This document shows positions 50,666 to 64,000 of a DNA stretch of 64,000 bases, in pieces (position 1 is the stretch's first letter; each line of letters begins with the position of its first letter). Source of the DNA: Malus domestica. Lineage: Eukaryota > Streptophyta > Magnoliopsida > Rosales > Rosaceae. Position numbers and translations under genes: made by a program. The stretch is from positions 39,071,501-39,135,500 of the forward strand of contig NC_091670.1 of assembly GCF_042453785.1 (NCBI RefSeq). Direction: 5' to 3'. A model generated the notes under the pieces. That model was not told the DNA's origin. It made no database searches and saw only the letters and a program-made list of their open reading frames with translations.

Positions 50666-51603
50666 TGTTTGGGCCCAAAATATTAGTTTGGGCCGAGTAT
50701 AGAATCATTCTCGGCCCAGGAGGCCTTACAACAGGGATATCATGGATCGTGGGCCTCCAAACCTAGGACGGCTAGGTCATAACGCAGGACAAGTCGAGTC
50801 CTGGTGCAATAAGGAGTCTTGGCAGGATTAATAACCCGAAAGCGAATTCGGCTCGATTAAGAACTAGGTTCACAATCATAGAGAAAATAGGACTGGTCGA
50901 GTTGGCATTTGATCAAGAGAAGAAGACCTACTCCGAGTAGGGTTTTGACTCGACTTTGAAGGTGTCCAGTGCTATAAATAGAGGAGGCTGTGCAACAAAT
51001 GAGGTCTCCAATTCAACACATAAAACTGCCCTGCGCAAACCCTCTCAACAACTTTGAGATTTTTATTTTCTCTTTTCGCTGACACATTTTCCGTTGGCAT
51101 CAACAGCACTGTGAAAGCAACCGGTGATATCTTAAGTCGGCATAGATATCTCTGTTACCATAGAATCAGCCGGTCTCGCAGCATCTTCCGTTGGTACCAA
51201 CAGCACTACGGTGAGGACAGTTGATTACCTATCCAAGTCTCGGTTAAGAAAGATTTCTGAATCCTTGTTAGTCGAGGTCATCTCATCAGCCTTTTCGGCG
51301 AAGTGAGGTGTTACGAGTTACTACATTCGGCACATTGGAAGTTGAATTGGATATTGAACTTCGTAAGAATAGTAGCCTTGTCTTCAGGTTCGAGAACCCA
51401 AGAGGCCGAGACGTGTTCCTTCCTCGGTCACAATCGCAAGACGCAGAAGTCAGCCGCGCACCCAACTCAACATCAATAAATTTTACTCCTCGGCCGAGCT
51501 CGGCCGACGAGTTGGCACGCCCCGCATTCACCGAAGGACGTAGTTAGTTTTTAAATTACTCGGCCTGCGCGCCACGTAGGCTTGGTAGTTTTTAGGGTCA
51601 ACA
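50666..51603 (+). repeat. 5' LTR of the Tat element
   Basis: 938 bp, TGTTTGGGCC ... GGTCAACA. TATA box TATAAATA at 50973-50980. Matches 63249-64000 over all of the shared length. Confidence 0.92.
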
Positions 51604-51625
51604 TTTTGGCACGCCCAGTGGGACC
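51604..51625 (+). other. Primer-binding site zone of the Tat element
   Basis: TTTTGGCACGCCCAGTGGGA directly follows the LTR. The position fits a primer-binding site; I could not assign the tRNA. Confidence 0.5.
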
Positions 51626-51639
51626 CAGTGCTAAACTAC

Positions 51640-54130
51640 GAAGTTTATGCCAATTGAAACACGATCGGTAAAAAAGAAAACAGCTATGGGAAAATCAACA
51701 GCCAATTTACCAACTCAGAACATAGGACACAGTTTGCCACAGGCGCAGAATCCCATCAGCGCCGTAACACTTGAGTCCACGAGCGCAACTCGCCGAGAAA
51801 GGGAAGTTAATCTCGACGGTCAGTTTCGCAGCTTCGAAATCTTCGACAAGAACACCTGCGTCCTCAATGAATGGATAATAGAGGATTATGACGAAGATGG
51901 TGGCGAATGATCTGATCCACCAACAAGGTCGTTTCTTCGAAAACGGCTTGACGAGCAATCTCGGACGGTTGAACAGACGTTTAGTCGAGGAATCGATAAA
52001 CTTCATGACGTGATACGCAATACCAGTGAGGCACAAACCAGATTACTTGAAATACTGGTTAGTAAGGTCATCGATGGTAGAACTTTCGATCTTGCCCAAC
52101 ATTTGCCACCGAGGAATAATCTATTACCAAGTGCACCGACCGAGCCAATCCCTGCTCGGCTCAAACCAATTAACTTGGAGAGAGGATGAGGATCGAATAG
52201 TAGGTCAGACGGATCCGACCAGAGAGTAGAAGCAACACCCGTCGATATGACCGAGGTCCAACAGATGATCGATTCGGCCATGAAGAAAGGGCCGAAGTTC
52301 CCTACGTTTATACACCCGTATCCAGCTTATGTGGAACAGTTCGAATACCCTAAAGGTTTCAAAATCCCAGATTTTAGCCTTTTTACCGGAGAATCATCCT
52401 TATCCTCGTTAGAACATGTAGCTCGTTTCACCGCGCAATGTGGAGACGTCAATAGTGACTTTCACAAGCTGCGACTTTTCAATTTCTCGCTGATCGGTTC
52501 AGCGTTCGCTTGGTATATCAACCTCCCACCGAATTCCGTCCAGAGCTGGGAGGAGTTGGTCGAGAAATTTCATGAGTAGTTTTATCGGTCGGGGATAGAA
52601 ATGTCAGTATCCTCGCTAGCAAGGATGGCTCAAGCATCCGACGAGTCACCAATGGATTATCTTACCAGATTTAAATCAGCCAGGAATTGGTGCCGAGTAC
52701 CTCTCCCGAAGTCGAATTCGTCAGACTTGCTCTGAACGGTCTTGACGTCGAATACAAAAAGAAATTCTTGGGGGCAAACTTTCGGGATATGTATGAATTA
52801 GCCTAACATGTCGAGCAGTATGATTATTTGCTCCGCGAGGAAAAGATTTCGAAAGCTCCATCTCGATGGACGATTTACAAGAATCCTACTATCAATTATG
52901 CATCGACCGAGGATGAATGCGTTAGCGTGGATGCAGCTGAGATAGTGATAGATAAGCCATACGTTTGCAAGGCACTGACTCAAGTTGACTCTAAGGAAGT
53001 CAAAACCCGCTCGGCCACTGAAGGAACACTGAAACCGTCAAAAGTTTATACTTTTGATATTACAAAAGCCGATGCAATTTTTTATCAACTGTTATCAGCG
53101 AGGATCATCAAACTTCAGCCTGGGCACAACATTCCCAAGGCCGAAGAGCTTAAAGGAAAGATATATTGCAAATACCATAACTCAAGCAAACATACGACAA
53201 ACAATTGCGTCGTGTTTCGAGACAACGTCCAAAGCTGGATTGATAATGGCAAACTGAGATTTCCAGAGAAGAAGATGAGCGTTGATACTGACCTGTTCCC
53301 CACGGCAACAGTAAATATGGTCGATGCGTGCCTACCTAAGGACAAAGGGAAAGGGAAGGCCGAAGCTGTTGCGACGCAACGCTTTCATAATCAGAACTCT
53401 CGGCCACGTTTCATGGTCGATTTTCGTTCAAACGAACCACCTACAACTTTAACGGGACCCGCTATTGTCAAGCCTATGATGGATTACAGCACTGATGAAG
53501 ACAGTGAGACGGCGGTTTTATGCAGTAAATGTAGAGCAAAGGTCAACATTGAGCCAGAGGGAAAGTCCTCTCCGCTTATAATGGAACAACCTACAGCCGC
53601 AACCCAGCAAAAGGTGACCAACGTGGGCCAACATCAAGGGGTTTTTGATAGGCTCAGTCCTAAAGTGAGGATGGAAGAGACACCTTCAGTCAGACGGCGC
53701 CTTGATTTTGATGCTTCATTTTATGACGAGGACTACTATATATGTAACTCTAGCAGCTCGGAATCATCGCGGAGCCAAAAAACTTTCAAACCTCCCGAAC
53801 CTAGATACCAACGTTGGTATACATATCACTCTTTGAAAGGCGTCTACACCGCACTATCTAAATCCCAGAAATGCCAGCACCAAAGAATAGATTGCATGGC
53901 CCGCCGACGGGCAGCCCAAGAAACTTCGGTCCCTAAATGGCGGCCGAAAGACACAAATACCACCGACGATGAACGACCACCTCCAACGATTATGACGGAG
54001 TTGGTTCAAGGGAAACGGCTGGTCAATCAAGATATCGAAACCACGTTCGAAGAGGCTGATAAACGAATCAAACTTCTTCTTCGGCCTAGGGAGATGAAGG
54101 CACGTCTCGAGCATTTCAGGTAAGAAGCTG
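51640..54130 (+). mobile_element. gag region of the Tat element
   Basis: Fossil gag: a capsid-type stretch around 52240-52700 (FKIPDFSLFTG ... WEELVEKF, the retrotrans-gag pattern) and a Cys/His-containing segment near 53160-53260 (YCKYHNSSKHTTNNC). Long acidic and Ser-rich tail. Limits approximate; broken. Confidence 0.8.
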
Positions 54131-55620: not shown

Positions 55621-55899
55621 ACACCGATCAGGAAAAACGTAGAGCCACTGTTTCATCTACTATGGAACGACTGCTGGCTCATTGGTATACTATATCTAAA
55701 CAACCAAATTCGGGCGTTAACCTCGTCGAGTTCCTCACCGAAGGAGATAATGATCCTGTCTTATCTCTTGACAAAATTCAAGCCGCCCCGGCCGAGCTCG
55801 AAGATAATCGGCCCCAAGTCAAAGATCCCTTGGAGGAAATTAATGTTGGGACGGCCGATGACCCACGGCCTTTATTTGTTAGTGTTTGACTTCCCCAAC

Positions 55900-57140
55900 C
55901 TATGAAGGCCGAACTTCGTGCCCTACTGGAGGAATTTAAAGATTGTTTTGCTTGGAGCTATCATGAAATGCCTGGCTTAGATCGTACTTTCGTCGAACAT
56001 GAGTTACGTATTAAGCCTGGATGTAAACCTTTCCGTCAACCACCTCGCCGATTCTCGACCGAAGTACAACTCGGTATCAAGGACGAACTGGTTCGGCTCT
56101 TAAACGCCGGGTTCATTCGGACAGCTCGGTACGTTGAATGGTTGGCCAATATCGTTCCTGTTTTAAAGAAAAATGGTGCACTGCGTATTTGCATTGACTT
56201 TAGAAATCTGAATCTGGCAACTCCCAAAGATGAGTATACCATGCCGATTTCAGATTTGTTAATAGATGTTGCGGCAAATCATGCCATCTTATCTTTTATG
56301 CATGGCCATGCCGGGTACAACCAAATTTTCATTGCCGAAGCTGATATGCACAAAACTGCTTTTCGCTGCTTGGGGACACTCGGCACTTACGAATGGATTG
56401 TTATGCCATTCGGCCTCAAAAATGCCGGCGCCACATACCAACGGGCAATGAACACCATATTTCATGATTTAATGGGAACCATCGTCGAAGTCTATATCGA
56501 CGATGTTGTAATTAAATCCAAACAACGGCGGACTCATCTGGATGATTTCCGACAGGCTTTCCTCCGTATGCGTCAACACAATCTCAAAATGAATCCTACC
56601 AAATGTACGTTCGGTGTGTCGGCCGGTAATTTTCTCGGTTTCCTAGTGCATCACCGTGGGATTGAAGTGGATGAAAATAAAGCACGTGCAATCGTCAGTG
56701 CTCCACCCCCGACGATGAAGAAACAACTGCAGTCCTTACTCGATAAGATAAATTTTCTCCGCCGATTTATAGCTAACTCGGCAGGTAAAATGAAAGCGTT
56801 TTCGACGCTTTTGAAACTTAAGGACTCAGATAAATTTGAGTGGACCGATGAGCATCAGGCAGCATTTACACAAATCAAAGTCTCCCTCACGACATCACCT
56901 GTCCTTGTTCCACCCCGACGCGGTAAACCTCTCAAACTATATATCTCGACGGCTGAAGAGTCCATCGGCTGCCTTCTCACCCAGGATAACGATGCCGGGC
57001 GGGAGCACGCTATTTTTTACCTCAGTAAAAATCTTAATAAACCAGAAATCAATTATTCCACCGTTGAGAAGCTCTGTCTCGCCGTGTTTTTCGCCGCCTC
57101 TAAACTTCGGCATTACATGCTCCCATCGGTCACATAAGTC
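55900..57140 (+). mobile_element. Reverse transcriptase and RNase H of the Tat element
   Basis: RT blocks ICIDFRNLNLATPKDEY, MPFGLKNAGATYQRAM, the catalytic YIDDVVIKSK and NFLGFLVHHRGIEV are all readable. RNase H follows (YISTAEESIGCLL, REHAIFYLSKNL, NYSTVEKLCLAVFFA). Typical Ty3/Gypsy order. Confidence 0.92.
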
Positions 57141-57329
57141 ATTGCCCAGACTGACATCATCCGCTACATGCTCACTCGAACCCATCGTAAAAGGTCGAAT
57201 TGGGAAGTGGACAATGGCGTTGTCTGAAGTTTGCTTGCAATACGTGCCGCAGAAAGCTGTCAAAGGCCAGACACTAGCTGATTTCCTTGCTCACCACCCT
57301 TCCCCTTATGGTTTTGGGGGGACTGACGT

Positions 57330-57740
57330 CGAAATCGGCATGGTTGACAAGCGCGATAACTATTGGACGATGTACTTTGACGGCTTAAGTACTTCATCAT
57401 CGGCTGGCGTCGAAATTGTCATTCAATCCCCAAACCATGATCGCTGGTATTTTTCACTCAAGCTGGATTTTGAATGCACAAACAATCAGGCCGAATACGA
57501 AGCCCTTGTTATCGGCCTTGACATCCTGCATGACTTACGGGCAACCCGTGTCCTCATCCTCGACGACTCCGAACTCGTGATTAACCAACTTAATGGGTCT
57601 TTTCGCTACATGAGTTGCACCCTGGCACCCTACCACATGGTCGCCAGCTATTTGGCCGAATCTTTCGACGGTATTACATTTGAACATATTTCTCGGATCC
57701 ATAATACCGACGTAGACGAGTTGGCTCAAATCACCTCCGG
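57330..57740 (+). mobile_element. Second (archaeal-like) RNase H of the Tat element
   Basis: WTMYFDGLST, NNQAEYEALVIGL, DSELVINQLNG and HISRIHNTDVDELAQ are the blocks of the extra RNase H that Tat-lineage elements carry after the first one. Confidence 0.85.
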
Positions 57741-58139
57741 TGCACAACTCCTGGGGGGTAAGCTAGGCCGAGAAATACCCATGTTACGACAGCTATACCC
57801 GGCCTTAGTTAACCAGCAAGTCCTCCGACGCGACAACGTGATACGCACTAGAGTCATGTCCTTACCTTCGTTGCTAGACCGACAAGACTTTATAGAGGTT
57901 TGTGCCGTCGAGGCAATACCAGATGATTGGAGAAATCCCATTATGCAGTACCTTGACAATCCCAATGGCAAACATAGCCGCAAGACACGAGTCACGCCAC
58001 AAACTATGTCACGTACCAAAACGAGTTATACCGAAAGGGTGAGGATGGTCTATTACTGCTATGCCTCGGCCCCCAGGAGAATGCTCAGGCAATCACGGAA
58101 GTCCATGAAGGGATTTACGGAGCTCATCAGTCCGGATGA

Positions 58140-59185
58140 AAAATGCGGTGGTTGTTACGACGACACGGCTATTTTTGGCCACGAATATTAAATGATTGTA
58201 TCGAGTTCGCACGAGGGTACATACAATGTCAGATTCATGGTCCTATACAGCGGGTCTCGGTCGAATCATTACATTCGGTCACTAAACTATGGCCATTCAG
58301 AGGATGGGCCATGGACGTAATCGGTAAAATTACACCATCTTCCGGGGCTGCCAAACACGCATGGATACTGGTAGCAACCAATTACTTCACTAAGTGGGTT
58401 GAAGCTAAGTCATATGCCGAGCTAACATCTAAAGAAGTTTGTGACTTTGTGGAAGAACACATTGTGACCAGGTTCGGTGTACCAGAAATGATTATAACCG
58501 ATAATGGCATAATCTTTACAGCCGAGAGGTTTAGAGAATATACGGTGAGTTTGAAAATTCGGCTTGAACAATCTACACCGTATTATCCACAAGCAAATGG
58601 GCAGGCCGATGCAAGTAATAAAGTGTTGATCGGCATTCTCGAGAAAATAATAAAGGATAGGGCCGGCATGTGGCATTTAAAGTTGAATGAGGCTTTGTGG
58701 GCATATCGAACATCACCACGATCGGCGACCGGAACAACCTCATATGCATTAACCTACGGACACGATGCAATGTTACCAGTCGAGTTAAGCATAAATTCGA
58801 TGCGGTTAATTGAACAAAGTAGTTTGATCAGCGCCGAATATAATCAGTCCATAAGACAGGAGTTAGAAGATTTAGAAGAAGCGCGATGCCTATAACTTAC
58901 TGGTGGCGCAAAAACGGATTGCCGAGCGCGCCTATAACCAAAAGGTACGACAAAAAACATTTGGCGAAGGAGAATTGGTTTGGCAAACAGTGTTGCCAGT
59001 AGGACTAAAGAACCCTAGGTTTGGCAAATGGTCGCCAAATTGGGAAGGGCCGTACGTTGTACATAAAATATATGGCAAATGGGCATATCATCTTAGAGAC
59101 CGGACCGGTTTCGTTCACAAATTACCAATCAATGGGAAATTTTTAAAGAAATACTATCCGGTCACATGGGAAATGTGGGAATAGA
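58140..59185 (+). mobile_element. Integrase of the Tat element
   Basis: Core blocks WAMDVIGKI, KYFTKWVEAK-like, ITDNG, YYPQANGQ and LWAYRTS are readable. The C-terminal part has NWEGPYVVHKI and KYYPVTWEMWE. No chromodomain is seen, as expected of the Tat lineage. Confidence 0.9.
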
Positions 59186-59239: not shown

Positions 59240-62200
59240 TTTACATTTAAATACATTTAAGGCGAAGAAGGAAGAAGAGTGCCGAGAAGGGCCTTCAGCT
59301 CCAACCACCGCACCTCGCCCATTATGACCTCGGCCTGCCGTTTCTTTTTGTCCATTTTTAACTGCTCGACCCGTTTTGTGCTCGCTGCATACTCGGTTAA
59401 GCAAGCTTTGCCGCCCGACTCGAAGTCCTTAGCAAGCTCGGAAGCAATAGACGATTTTCGTTTCGCTAATTCGGCCATTTGACGGTCGAGGTCGGCCAAG
59501 GCCTCTCCTTTTCCCTTTAAAGCATCAATCTTTGGACGGAGAATTTCTCGGACGGCCATGGCATCTTGCAGGTCTTGTTCAGCCCTCAAAGTGTTCTCAA
59601 AGACACTAAAGGTCTCCCGAACCCGCTTCAAGGCGGATGACGCCTAAACGATAGCCTTGCCGCTTAGTTGACCATCAACTCCGAGATTGTTTAGACATGC
59701 ACCCAACAAATCAAGACCTTTGTGTTCAAGGACTTGCGATGCCGAGAGAGACAAAACCTCTTGCAACCGAGCTAGAGCAGTTGAGTCAGCGGTTTTGGGT
59801 GTGGCGGCCGAAGGACCAGCCACTCCAGTAGTGCTGGACAAAAGGGCGTTAAACTCAACCTCCCATGAAGCCTGCACACAAAGGTAAGGTTAAGCTCAAG
59901 AAAATCACAAAAAGGTAGCAAGGAGGTGTTATTTCTTTTAAACCTAAAGAGATGAGACTTCGGCCATATCTTCAGGGTCATTGCTCGAACCTAAAGAACT
60001 TAATGGCCGAGCCCAGTGTCTTAGATTGCTTCTCAGTTCACGCAGTCGATGGAGGTTATCTACGTTCGATGGCCACTGAGGCGGCAAAGAAATATAGATA
60101 ACACCCTTCGGCGCATAGAATTTTCGATGAAAAGAGTGTGCAGGCACCTGACATTTAGTATTTTCCTGGTTTAGAGTTTTATGGCAGCAAAATAACCAAG
60201 GAAAAGCGGTAGGAGGTACTTACAAAGGTCGAAATGGCCTCATGCGGAGGAATATTGAGATCCCAGTCCTGTGGATGAACAAGCATTTTCGCCGACGCTT
60301 CTGGCTCCCCGACAGGTCGTTTGCCACGGTCGGCCGTAGAAGGGCCGACTTGGACAGCCGCTTCAGACACGGGGTTGAGGTCCTGGTCTTGTGGAGGAGC
60401 GGGCGTTTCTGTCGCCGCTGCTGGCTCTCCAGCCTGTCGTTTACCACGGTCGGTCGTGGGAGGACCGACTCGGGCAACCACTTCAGACACAGGAGGAGGT
60501 TGATGACGGGAACGAGGGTGACTCGCCAGTGGAACCTCGTCCCTCCCCTCACTCTCTTCCAAAACGAAGATCGAGGGTTTTGGATTTGCAGGGGAAGTTC
60601 TCTCTGTCGCAGAGACTGCCTTTTCCAGGACAGGTGCAGCTTCGACCGAGGGAACAACGATGGGTTTACCAACTTTAGAAACAGGCCGTTCTTGGACTGT
60701 TTCTTCAGTCGGAATTGGCCATCTCTCAACCAAGGCTTGGGCGATGGGAGGAGAAGGGGAAACACTAGGAGTCGTCACCCCCGTGGTTTGGCTGGAGATA
60801 ACGTGAATCTCCCGTTCCCCTTTCTTCGCCAGCTTTTTGACTCGCTTGGCGGGCTGAGGAGGTTCGATGGTCGGCTCGACCTCTTGATGAGGCCGTTTGC
60901 TCGGCGGGGCCTGCACAACGATCTTTACCCTCTTCGAGGTGACCGATTTTTTCTCGACCGCAGCCGCAGCGACTACTTCCACCTTTTTCAAAGACCGACC
61001 ACCTGTGAAGGTAAGAGCGAGTCAGCAAAGCTGATTCATAGTTCAAAAAGTTAAAGGAAAAAGGTAGAGATAAACCGTTACCTTGGGCTGGAGGGGCAAA
61101 AACCTTCTTAGGTCGACCACCAAAGAGTTTGTTCAGAACGATTTCGATCGAAACACCAAAGAACCGTTGGGTATATTCTTCCCACCAATCACCGAAGGTG
61201 TCGGTGCAAAGGGATTCTGGAGTGGCCGGTCGAAGGTGAAATTTCTGGCACTGCTCTTGGAACTCTTTTTTGGCGTCGCTGTACTCCTTCTCTGAAGAAC
61301 CAGTTTCGCATCCGTGGCTTAGGACGGACCGTGAGGAGAGAAGGGGGACCGGGCAACCTTGGAGGTAGCCAAGTTACCGAGCGAGGAAGTTGGGATGGTA
61401 CACTTCCCAACTCGCCCAGCGACCTTCACAGCCGAGAGGCAGATCACGGGCAAGCACGAACGACCCCCAGGATTGACGAAAGTCATCATCTTCGTCCGCA
61501 CCCCACGCTACTGTAGGAAGTCTGATCGACGAAGGGTATTCCCGACGACGACAGACCATGAATTCGTCATCAGAAAGGTCGTCGAGAGTGAAAAAGTATT
61601 TGAACACTTCTTCGGCTTGGTGATGAGGGATTGGCCGAAAAGCCAGCTGAGGGCCAAGCGATTCCTTGGGCGAGAAATCAGCAATCGTCGGCCGAAGAGG
61701 AGCAAAGTAGACCTGCAGCCAGAGTTGGAAGACCCAGAGGGGACCATTCTGCTGCGGGTCGACCTTATCTAGGGTCGTGTCAGCCAAGCAGCGTAGGAGA
61801 TGGGCGAGAATGGCCAGGCTGAGTGCCAGAGTGTGACCACTAGCTAGGGCTTCGGCCACTGACATATTCTAAACCAGACACTTGTTGGATTTGGTACAAC
61901 AGATAAACTTGTTGTACCAATAGAAGATGAAGGCCTCGTGCTCTCTTTCTCGCAGCGCCTCTTCTCCTCGGCTGGCAAAATGGAGGTAGAGGGTGTTAGA
62001 GTTGAAGAAGTTCTTGTGAAGCTTGTGAACCTCTTCTTTTGGGGGTGTTTGGCCGTCAGTGCTTAGCGTTCTCAAGTTAAGATTCGACGGGTACCTAGAA
62101 AGGGCAGAGTTGACTGGGATTCCAGTCGGGGAAGTCCCCAGGATGGCAGTAAGATTGAGGATGGTGGGACCAATGGGGCCGAGAGGGAGGACCATGGTGT

Positions 62201-62615
62201 TAGTGGCCGAACACCAAAAGCATAAAACCGCTAGGAGGAGCTTCTTGTCCAGAATGATCTTCATAGATGAAAGGCGAATGACGTCGTAGATGCCTAGGGA
62301 TTTCCATTGCTCGCCAAAGATTTTTTCCATTCGAACAACCCAGGCTACCCAGGTTGTAGTAGTCGAGGGCCAAGAACCTTGGGGCCTCGCTACCTCCCAC
62401 TTCGACCAGTCGAACCCTTGTAGTAAGGGTGATAAGCAATGCTCCTGGAGAAGTGCAGTAATGGTCGATGGCACCGTCGCCTTAAAAAGAGGACCCAAGA
62501 TTTGATGAGGGGTGCTCATGTCGCTCTCAAATCGGATGGTCTTGATTGAACTCCGATCGATGATCTTCTGGCATTGGTCACACTCCTTGGAAAGCTTAGA
62601 GATAAAGAAGGCCAT
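59240..62615 (-). mobile_element. Antisense coding block of the Tat element, plant-mobile-domain-like
   Basis: Between integrase and 3' LTR the coding-like sequence runs on the opposite strand. Right part (about 61370-62615): a globular protein-like stretch (GFDWSKWEVARPQGSW, VAWVVRMEKIFGEQWKS, LTAILGTSPTG) resembling plant mobile domain proteins. Middle (about 60180-60990): Pro/Ser/Lys-rich with two similar GP.TADRGKR segments. Left (about 59250-59880): Leu/Lys/Glu-rich, coiled-coil-like. Antisense ORFs at this place are known in some Tat-lineage elements. The family call is tentative. Broken in a few places; some gaps may be introns. Confidence 0.6.
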
Positions 62616-63233
62616 GATGAATGGTTTGAAGGAATGACAAGAAAAGAACTTTATGAGTTAAAGGTTGAAGACGAAAATTTGGAAGAAAGATATGCACTGG
62701 AGAGCAATGGCAAGAAATTCAGAAAATTGGAAAACGTAAAAGTACAAATGAAAGGATTTCGGTATCTATAGGACGATGGAGGGAAGGGCAATCGTTCGAA
62801 ATTCAAAATGAAGGGTAAAATCGACCGAGAAATTCGCTAATCATTATGAACATTCAGAAGATCCAGTTGAGAAGACCAAGGGTTTCGTATTTCGGACGCA
62901 CGATTACGTGTGGCGGCGAGATTTATGGTGAAAGATGGTTTGGCGTCTGCACGATGCTGAATGGTTCGCAGATCGAGGTGGCATGGTGGTGTTCAGCAAT
63001 AAAGCCATGATGATATGACGGTTCAGGCGGTTCAGGGAGCCGCACGCTTCAAACGTCATTATTAGGGACTAGCCCTATAAAAGAATGCCACGTAGTGTGG
63101 TGGTTAGCAGGATCAAGATCGTGCAATCGTGCTCAATAAATGCGCCTCGGGAATAAGAGCATTTGAGTTTTGAGTTTTAATTTCGCTTCTTCAAGGCCGA
63201 AGCTCGACCAGAGGGTTCAGGCCGAGGACCTCT

Positions 63234-63248: not shown

Positions 63249-64000
63249 TGTTTGGGCCCAAAATATTAGTTTGGGCCGAGTATAGAATCATTCTCGGCCC
63301 GGGAGGCCTTACAACAAGGATATCATGGATCGTGGGCCTCCAAACCTAAGACGGCTAGGTCATAACGCAGGACAAATCGAGTCCTGGTGCAATAAGGAGT
63401 CTTGGTAGGATTAATAACCCGAAAGTGAATCCGGCTCGATTAAGGACTAGGTTCACAATCATAGAGAAAATAGGACTGGTCGAGTTGGCATTTGATCAGG
63501 AGAAGAAAACCTACTCCGAGTAGGGTTTTGACTCGACTTTGAAGGTGTCCAGTGCTATAAATAGAGGAGGCTGTGCAACAAATGAGGTCTCCAATTCAAC
63601 ACACAAAACTGCCCTGCGCAAACCCTCTCAACAACTTTGAGATTTTTATTTTCTCTTTTCGCTGACACATCTTCCGTTGGCATCAACAGCACTGTGAAAG
63701 CAACCGGTGATATCTTAAGTCGGCATAGATAGCTCTGTTACCGTAGAATCAGCCGGTCTCGCAGCATCTTCCGTTGGCACCAACAACACTACGGTGAGGA
63801 CAGTTGATTACCTATCCAAGTCTCGGTCGAGAAGGATTTCTGAATCCTTATTGGTCGAGGTCATCTCATCAGCCTTCTCGGCGAAGTGAGGTGTTACGAG
63901 TTACTACATTCGGCACATTGGAAGCCGAATTGGATATTGAACTTCGTAAGAATAGTAGCCTTGTCTTTAGGTTCGAGAACTCAAGAGGCCCAGACGTGTT
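63249..64000 (+). repeat. 3' LTR of the Tat element, cut by the window end
   Basis: 752 bp seen, collinear with 50666-51417 and about 96 percent identical; the remaining 186 bp or so lie beyond the window. Confidence 0.93.

Follow-up and report, generated by a model that had tools for sequence, protein, structure and literature searches.

Tat-clade retrotransposons of plants can carry accessory genes on the strand opposite to their other genes, and a review describes one such gene that has a promoter of its own and a product located in the nucleus, and states that for most of these antisense genes in plant retrotransposons the origin is unknown (PMC7264820). A second line of work has published the plant mobile domain (PMD) in Gypsy elements (PMC5418596, PMC6317226, PMC9289625), with Gypsy-encoded PMD clades spread over the angiosperms (PMC5418596) and 57% of Ogre elements carrying the domain (pfam10536; Neumann 2019, PMC6317226). 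Host genomes encode PMD proteins as well: MAIN and MAIL1, of the PMD-C type, are silencing factors of Arabidopsis (PMC7156037, PMC5418596), and element-made PMD proteins have been proposed to act against host silencing (PMC8616336). The ancestry of element PMDs versus host PMDs is described as fully open (PMC5418596). With regard to the elements themselves, Ogre and Retand elements of angiosperms are described as having the order reverse transcriptase, RNase H, second RNase H and integrase (PMC6317226), and priming by tRNA-Arg is given as a feature of Ogre (PMC9289625).

Here we describe an antisense PMD gene in an element of this kind, found in a stretch of 64,000 nucleotides (the window) on contig C10 of a plant genome of 651 Mb and 19 contigs, which served as the genome for all searches.

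The host element and its antisense gene

An LTR retrotransposon occupies the window from 50666 to past its end at 64000 (Table 1). The two LTRs share 96.3% identity across 867 bp, the part that could be compared before the end of the locus used. The LTRs, a gag match below the Pfam cut-off, the reverse transcriptase, the RNase H and a second RNase H between the first one and the integrase are the features of the Tat clade of Ty3/gypsy elements (Ogre/Retand group), and this domain order agrees with a first-pass annotation, made from the sequence alone, that had called the element Tat-type. The same order (RT-RH-RVT_3-rve) is found in one unbroken ORF of copy L039, and a match to SH3_Tf2-1 at the window integrase is weak and under its cut-off. 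The primer binding site is complementary to tRNA-Arg(TCT) of the same genome (its pattern occurs at 5 places, and both of the 2 that were fetched are tRNA-Arg(tct) genes), and tRNA-Arg priming and the PMD together point to an Ogre as the candidate class. An Ogre would have a gap of ~274 bp between the GAG-PROT and RT ORFs, spliced in some species; in the window copy the gag-pro region is broken, with differing frames and adjoining pieces.

Between the integrase and the 3' LTR, the first-pass annotation had seen about 3.4 kb of separate minus-strand segments with a globular part and a Pro/Ser-rich linker containing an internal repeat. Alignment of eight copies resolves this block (59257-62615) into a minus-strand gene of four exons and three short GT-AG introns, in which the segments are mostly exons and both the PMD and a linker rich in Pro, Ser and Glu are present. 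The basic cluster of exon 2, picked out by eye, resembles a nuclear localisation signal and may be one, and the C-terminal part is a candidate coiled coil. The gene and pol lie tail to tail with 72 bp between their stops, and the opposite strand, the position between pol and 3' LTR and the presence in most copies are those of an aORF-3R antisense accessory gene. The window copy has four in-frame stops, and its own antisense gene is dead, because all eight copies of its family carry in-frame stops.

The proposed likeness to the PMD was borne out by a search with PF10536, without the failure to match that would have spoken against it: two consecutive minus-strand pieces of exon 1 matched with E-values of 1.3e-18 and 3e-8 (Pfam), the first at 67.8 bits against a cut-off of 34.9 and the second, at 33.6 bits, slightly below it. 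Related copies reach 135-139 bits across all 347 positions of the profile. Pieces of the linker and tail gave no Pfam match above a cut-off, the best match among solved structures was unrelated (E 0.31), and an AlphaFold model of an intact exon 1 from a sister copy was poor (mean pLDDT 47, pTM 0.45).

Table 1. Features of the element and of its antisense gene (positions in the window).
Feature	Position	Strand	Remarks
5' LTR	50666..51603	+	3' end inferred from the primer binding site
Primer binding site	51607..51624	+	18 nt complementary to the tRNA-Arg(TCT) 3' end including CCA
gag fragment	52190..52576	+	Retrotrans_gag, 20.4 bits, under the Pfam cut-off of 24.1
Reverse transcriptase and first RNase H	55890..57134	+	RVT_1 2.2e-22, RT_RNaseH_2 2.2e-24
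Second RNase H (RVT_3)	57376..57729	+	7.1e-14, residues 188-305 of ORF 56815-58188
Integrase	58140..59184	+	rve 1.5e-11; two reading-frame pieces in the window copy
Exon 4	59260..59871 (stop codon 59257..59259)	-	Leu/Lys/Glu-rich C-terminal end; one in-frame stop in the window copy
Intron 3	59872..59943	-	72 nt, GT-AG
Exon 3	59944..60147	-	68 codons; stop at the last codon in the window copy
Intron 2	60148..60223	-	76 nt, phase 0, GT-AG
Exon 2	60224..61002	-	Pro/Ser/Glu-rich linker with internal repeat, read from sequence
Basic cluster in exon 2	60812..60898	-	Read from sequence
Intron 1	61003..61081	-	79 nt, phase 1, GT-AG
Exon 1	61082..62615	-	Holds the PMD; two in-frame stops in the window copy
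Antisense TATA-box region	62756..62770	-	155 nt upstream of the antisense ATG; altered in the window copy
3' LTR	63249..64000	+	Continues beyond the window end

Copies across the genome and constraint on the gene

The block matches 67 stretches of the genome at 79-100% identity, 20 of them longer than 3,000 bases; these counts are lower bounds, with 40 of 877 candidates scored, as are those of the integrase search, which scored 40 of 775. At all 40 integrase copies examined the block is present, directly adjoining in 38. It was located within 12 kb of 26 of them, directly beside the integrase in 24 and displaced by ~8.5 and 10 kb in two, perhaps moved apart by later insertions, and in the remaining 14 exon 1 is always present, in the orientation opposite to that of the integrase. 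One of these 14 (L061) has no exon 4 match within 4 kb and shows repeated partial matches in the antisense linker. In some copies (L041-L046, six of six looked at), the end of exon 2 and intron 2 are tandemly duplicated (window 60142-60373), which adds an exon-intron unit of ~228-235 bp; both donors of the duplicated introns are GT and the first acceptor is AG in all six, and the second acceptor is intact in three and altered or not fully aligned in the other three.

The domain itself has at least 118 PF10536 matches in the genome (117 of 1,706 candidates scored), all above the cut-off. Most of them look to be of the element kind, judged by a shared match length of 1,143 bp and by scores that hardly differ, and this is confirmed for the 25 copies that were aligned. 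Beyond the 30 PMD loci that we considered, 88 further matches were assigned no locus; L009-L020 and L035 are stand-alone, partial or of other kinds and were omitted from the alignment of 25 copies, which thus comprises eight of the window family and 17 related ones. Sixteen sister copies came from the top of the PMD score list, which favours unbroken ones.

Across the 25 copies, the splice dinucleotides are intact in 148 of 150 cases, the exceptions being one donor in L007 and one in L031. Among the eight copies of the window family every gap run in exon 1 is a multiple of three, introns 1 and 3 carry gaps of 1, 2 and 4, and seven gap runs in exons 2-4 are not multiples of three, a sign of decay of these old copies. 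Between the window family (8 copies) and the sister family (16 copies), Nei-Gojobori dN/dS in the gene frame is 0.09 for exon 1, 0.32 for exon 2, 0.17 for exon 3 and 0.16 for exon 4, which the sisters cover only partly, as opposed to 0.85-2.38 when each exon is read in its four out-of-step frames, in support of the original claim that the block codes for protein on the opposite strand. The minus-strand frame with the same codon triplets gives 0.16-0.48, likely explained by its overlap with the gene frame. For exon 3 this mirror frame (0.16) equals the gene frame, and within the 16 sisters its gene frame has 0.55 against 0.40-2.19 elsewhere with two wrong frames (0.40 and 0.45) lower; at 68 codons, this exon is short and therefore discriminates frames poorly.

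In the same pairs of elements (the eight copies versus L025/L039), dN/dS is 0.095 for exon 1 and 0.088 for the C-terminal 434 codons of pol, and this equal constraint suggests that the element needs the antisense PMD protein; dN/dS cannot tell what the protein does. Within the window family, the values are higher (exon 1 0.18, pol 0.26), fitting decay after insertion since all of its copies contain in-frame stops. By comparison, 13 of the 16 sister copies are free of in-frame stops in the aligned columns, though L021 has a frame break in exon 2; exon 1 is unbroken in 14 of the 16 as well as in L005 of the window family. The sister family has moved recently, as 28 of its 120 pairs are at least 99% identical, and in one of its copies the pol frame, which runs opposite to the PMD gene, stays open for 1,198 codons. 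We consider it highly probable that a functional spliced protein gene exists on the antisense strand, and the element probably makes use of this gene, which would then be no stray insertion.

A TATAAA motif lies 142-156 nt before the antisense ATG in 24 of 25 copies, between the gene and the 3' LTR. In the promoter table over all 25 copies (another covered 18), its block of 15 columns ranks sixth of 652 windows by conservation; five upstream windows score higher, so that the box is not uniquely conserved. It is a candidate part of a promoter of the gene's own, near which a putative antisense transcript would start.

What the antisense protein may do

From these patterns we infer that the antisense gene is transcribed and spliced and that its product is nuclear and functional; a nuclear role is what we would predict as likely. 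In the mechanism that we favour, though at less than even odds, the protein would enter the nucleus and act there on the host's PMD pathways (MAIN/MAIL1-PP7L in Arabidopsis) or on the chromatin of the element, and such action would keep the element expressed, making the protein a counter-silencing factor. We put this role forward tentatively: the element gene is a relative of silencing factors and under selection, which fits the counter-silencing proposal of PMC8616336.

The protein might instead be a nuclear accessory for the element's own cycle, in import or in integration targeting, without touching host silencing. The basic cluster in exon 2 and the nuclear product of gene23 of Grande (PMC7264820) argue for this possibility, which leaves unexplained why the domain should be that of host silencing factors, and we regard it as conceivable but short of probable. 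A function of the block as RNA, in which convergent transcription against pol would yield dsRNA and siRNAs that tune the element and the protein would be irrelevant, draws on the tail-to-tail arrangement and on the discussion of a dsRNA function in PMC7264820; it is very improbable, as neither an amino-acid constraint about equal to that of the pol C-terminus nor the preservation of splice sites is expected of an RNA-only function, and antisense RNA as the sole function is disfavoured and largely refuted by dN/dS. That a host gene had inserted just once, into a single copy of the element, was the outcome that the first-pass annotation expected a survey of other copies to be able to reveal; nothing found speaks for it, and it can practically be dismissed with the block at 40 of 40 integrase copies examined.

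Stand-alone relatives and the origin of the gene

The nearest PMD found outside the element group (117 of 1,706 candidates scored) belongs to L019, a stand-alone PMD gene (G000:C11:19892925-19894673, minus strand) with three or more open exons (583, 266 and 248 codons, counted from stop to stop) that is 27-34% identical to the element PMDs, depending on the stretch. Its own next matches are in turn element PMDs (75 of 1,689 candidates scored); most of the top matches show 31-34% identity and some show less. In the 21 kb around L019, no match to pol has an E-value below 0.2, and the direct repeats found there all lie on one side or the other without a flanking pair. Its intron 1 follows the PMD in phase 1 and its intron 2 is in phase 0, in the same order as in the element gene; these introns were placed by eye, and two phase matches arise by chance in about 1 of 9 cases. 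In a tree of 13 sequences, all from this genome, for which the tool warned of long branches and from which the partial or broken L013-L017 and L020 were left out, L019 is sister to the window-type PMDs with support 100/99, which is 100/99 without L012 and 100/100 without L012 and L035. The stand-alone PMD genes L009-L012 and L018 share 18-24% identity with the element PMD. Contig C3 has a cluster of such stand-alone genes and of fragments (L010, L011, L017 and L018; G000:C3:27566370-27616344), some of them with stops.

A second antisense kind is represented by L035, a PMD frame that runs for 941 codons from one stop to the next, lacks the introns that follow the PMD in the window type, and lies antisense beside an open pol frame of 1,213 codons with two RNase H domains (G000:C8:15096500-15105276, with L048); L035/L048 is a second Tat element with an antisense PMD. 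L035 joins L009-L011 and L018 (100/99) only if L012 is omitted; with L012 included, its attachment to one side or the other is poorly supported (59/23). The AU test rejects the union of the two antisense kinds in one clade (p 0.00044, with a warning about long branches from the tool). We treat the tree-based relations of L019 and L035 to the element PMDs as a lead.

The suggestion that the element had captured a host gene is unsupported if the recent capture of a local PMD gene is meant, as there is no near-identical or clearly parental gene among the scored candidates, of which L019 is the nearest. An old exchange, in one direction or the other, is plausible in view of the sister position of L019 and of the two intron phases that it has in common with the element gene. 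L019 is a candidate for either a domesticated gene or a progenitor. Domestication, by which a Tat element's antisense PMD gene would have become the host gene L019 with its introns included, may account for the tree and the introns, for L019 having no closer relative than the element PMDs, for its surroundings devoid of pol and of a flanking repeat pair and for its three open exons, and PMC5418596 states both a precedent and a preference for this direction; since capture fits the same data, we hold domestication to be possible but less than probable. In the opposite direction, a Tat element would long ago have picked up from genomic DNA, in antisense orientation, a host PMD gene that already had introns. 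The sister position of L019 and its intron phases agree with such a capture, and two antisense PMD kinds that do not form one clade could mean two captures, but the small, single-genome tree with its flagged branches, the introns placed by eye with their chance of matching and the leaning of PMC5418596 toward the other direction weigh against it and leave it rather doubtful.

The splice and poly(A) signals of an antisense gene are not read in the genomic RNA, and introns may therefore survive each round of retrotransposition. Two kinds of PMD gene occupy the same antisense slot of Tat elements in this genome, each with stand-alone relatives of its own: the four-exon window type, sister to L019, and the 941-codon L035 type without these introns, which groups with L009-L011 and L018 if L012 is omitted. 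Under a broader reading that we consider unlikely, this slot would repeatedly exchange silencing-factor genes with the host, the antisense orientation would let their introns pass unharmed, and the protein would blunt PMD-based silencing of the host. Introns that can be compared between an element gene and a stand-alone host gene offer a clue to the direction of transfer that is additional to trees, and the antisense PMD gene is worth following for its intron comparison with L019. A spliced PMD gene that is intact within an element could, moreover, be taken for a host gene in annotation. A genome paper counts PMD proteins among species-specific host genes (PMC11152179), and element-borne antisense PMD genes could be included there.

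Among described systems, the PMD ORFs of Ogre (PMC6317226) have in common with the window element the Tat clade, the additional RNase H between RNase H and integrase and the PMD, and tRNA-Arg priming is shared with Ogre as characterised in PMC9289625; the account of these ORFs drawn on here (PMC6317226) describes them without exon structure, promoter, selection or location in the element. Compared by description, the PMD-A1/A2 clades (Ikeda 2017, PMC5418596) are Gypsy-encoded PMDs of angiosperms like the ones found here, but are presented as clades without host genes, whereas the stand-alone L019 is sister to our element PMDs. MAIN and MAIL1 share the Pfam domain with the element gene but are host genes (PMC7156037, PMC5418596). 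The slot between pol and 3' LTR is shared with gene23 of Grande, an antisense accessory gene with its own promoter that PMC7264820, as far as its account goes, does not report as a PMD gene or as spliced, and with the antisense ORFs of Retand (Vicient 2025, PMC11963269), which also have repeats in this region and carry TRP28 in place of a PMD, with neither "PMD" nor "mobile domain" in the available text. A literature search at the level of listings and abstract openings turned up neither a spliced antisense PMD gene nor a statement on selection acting on such a gene, an absence that weighs little. Against this background, the PMD in Gypsy and Ogre elements and antisense accessory ORFs were already known, and what may be new here is the spliced structure of an antisense PMD gene and the selection acting on it.
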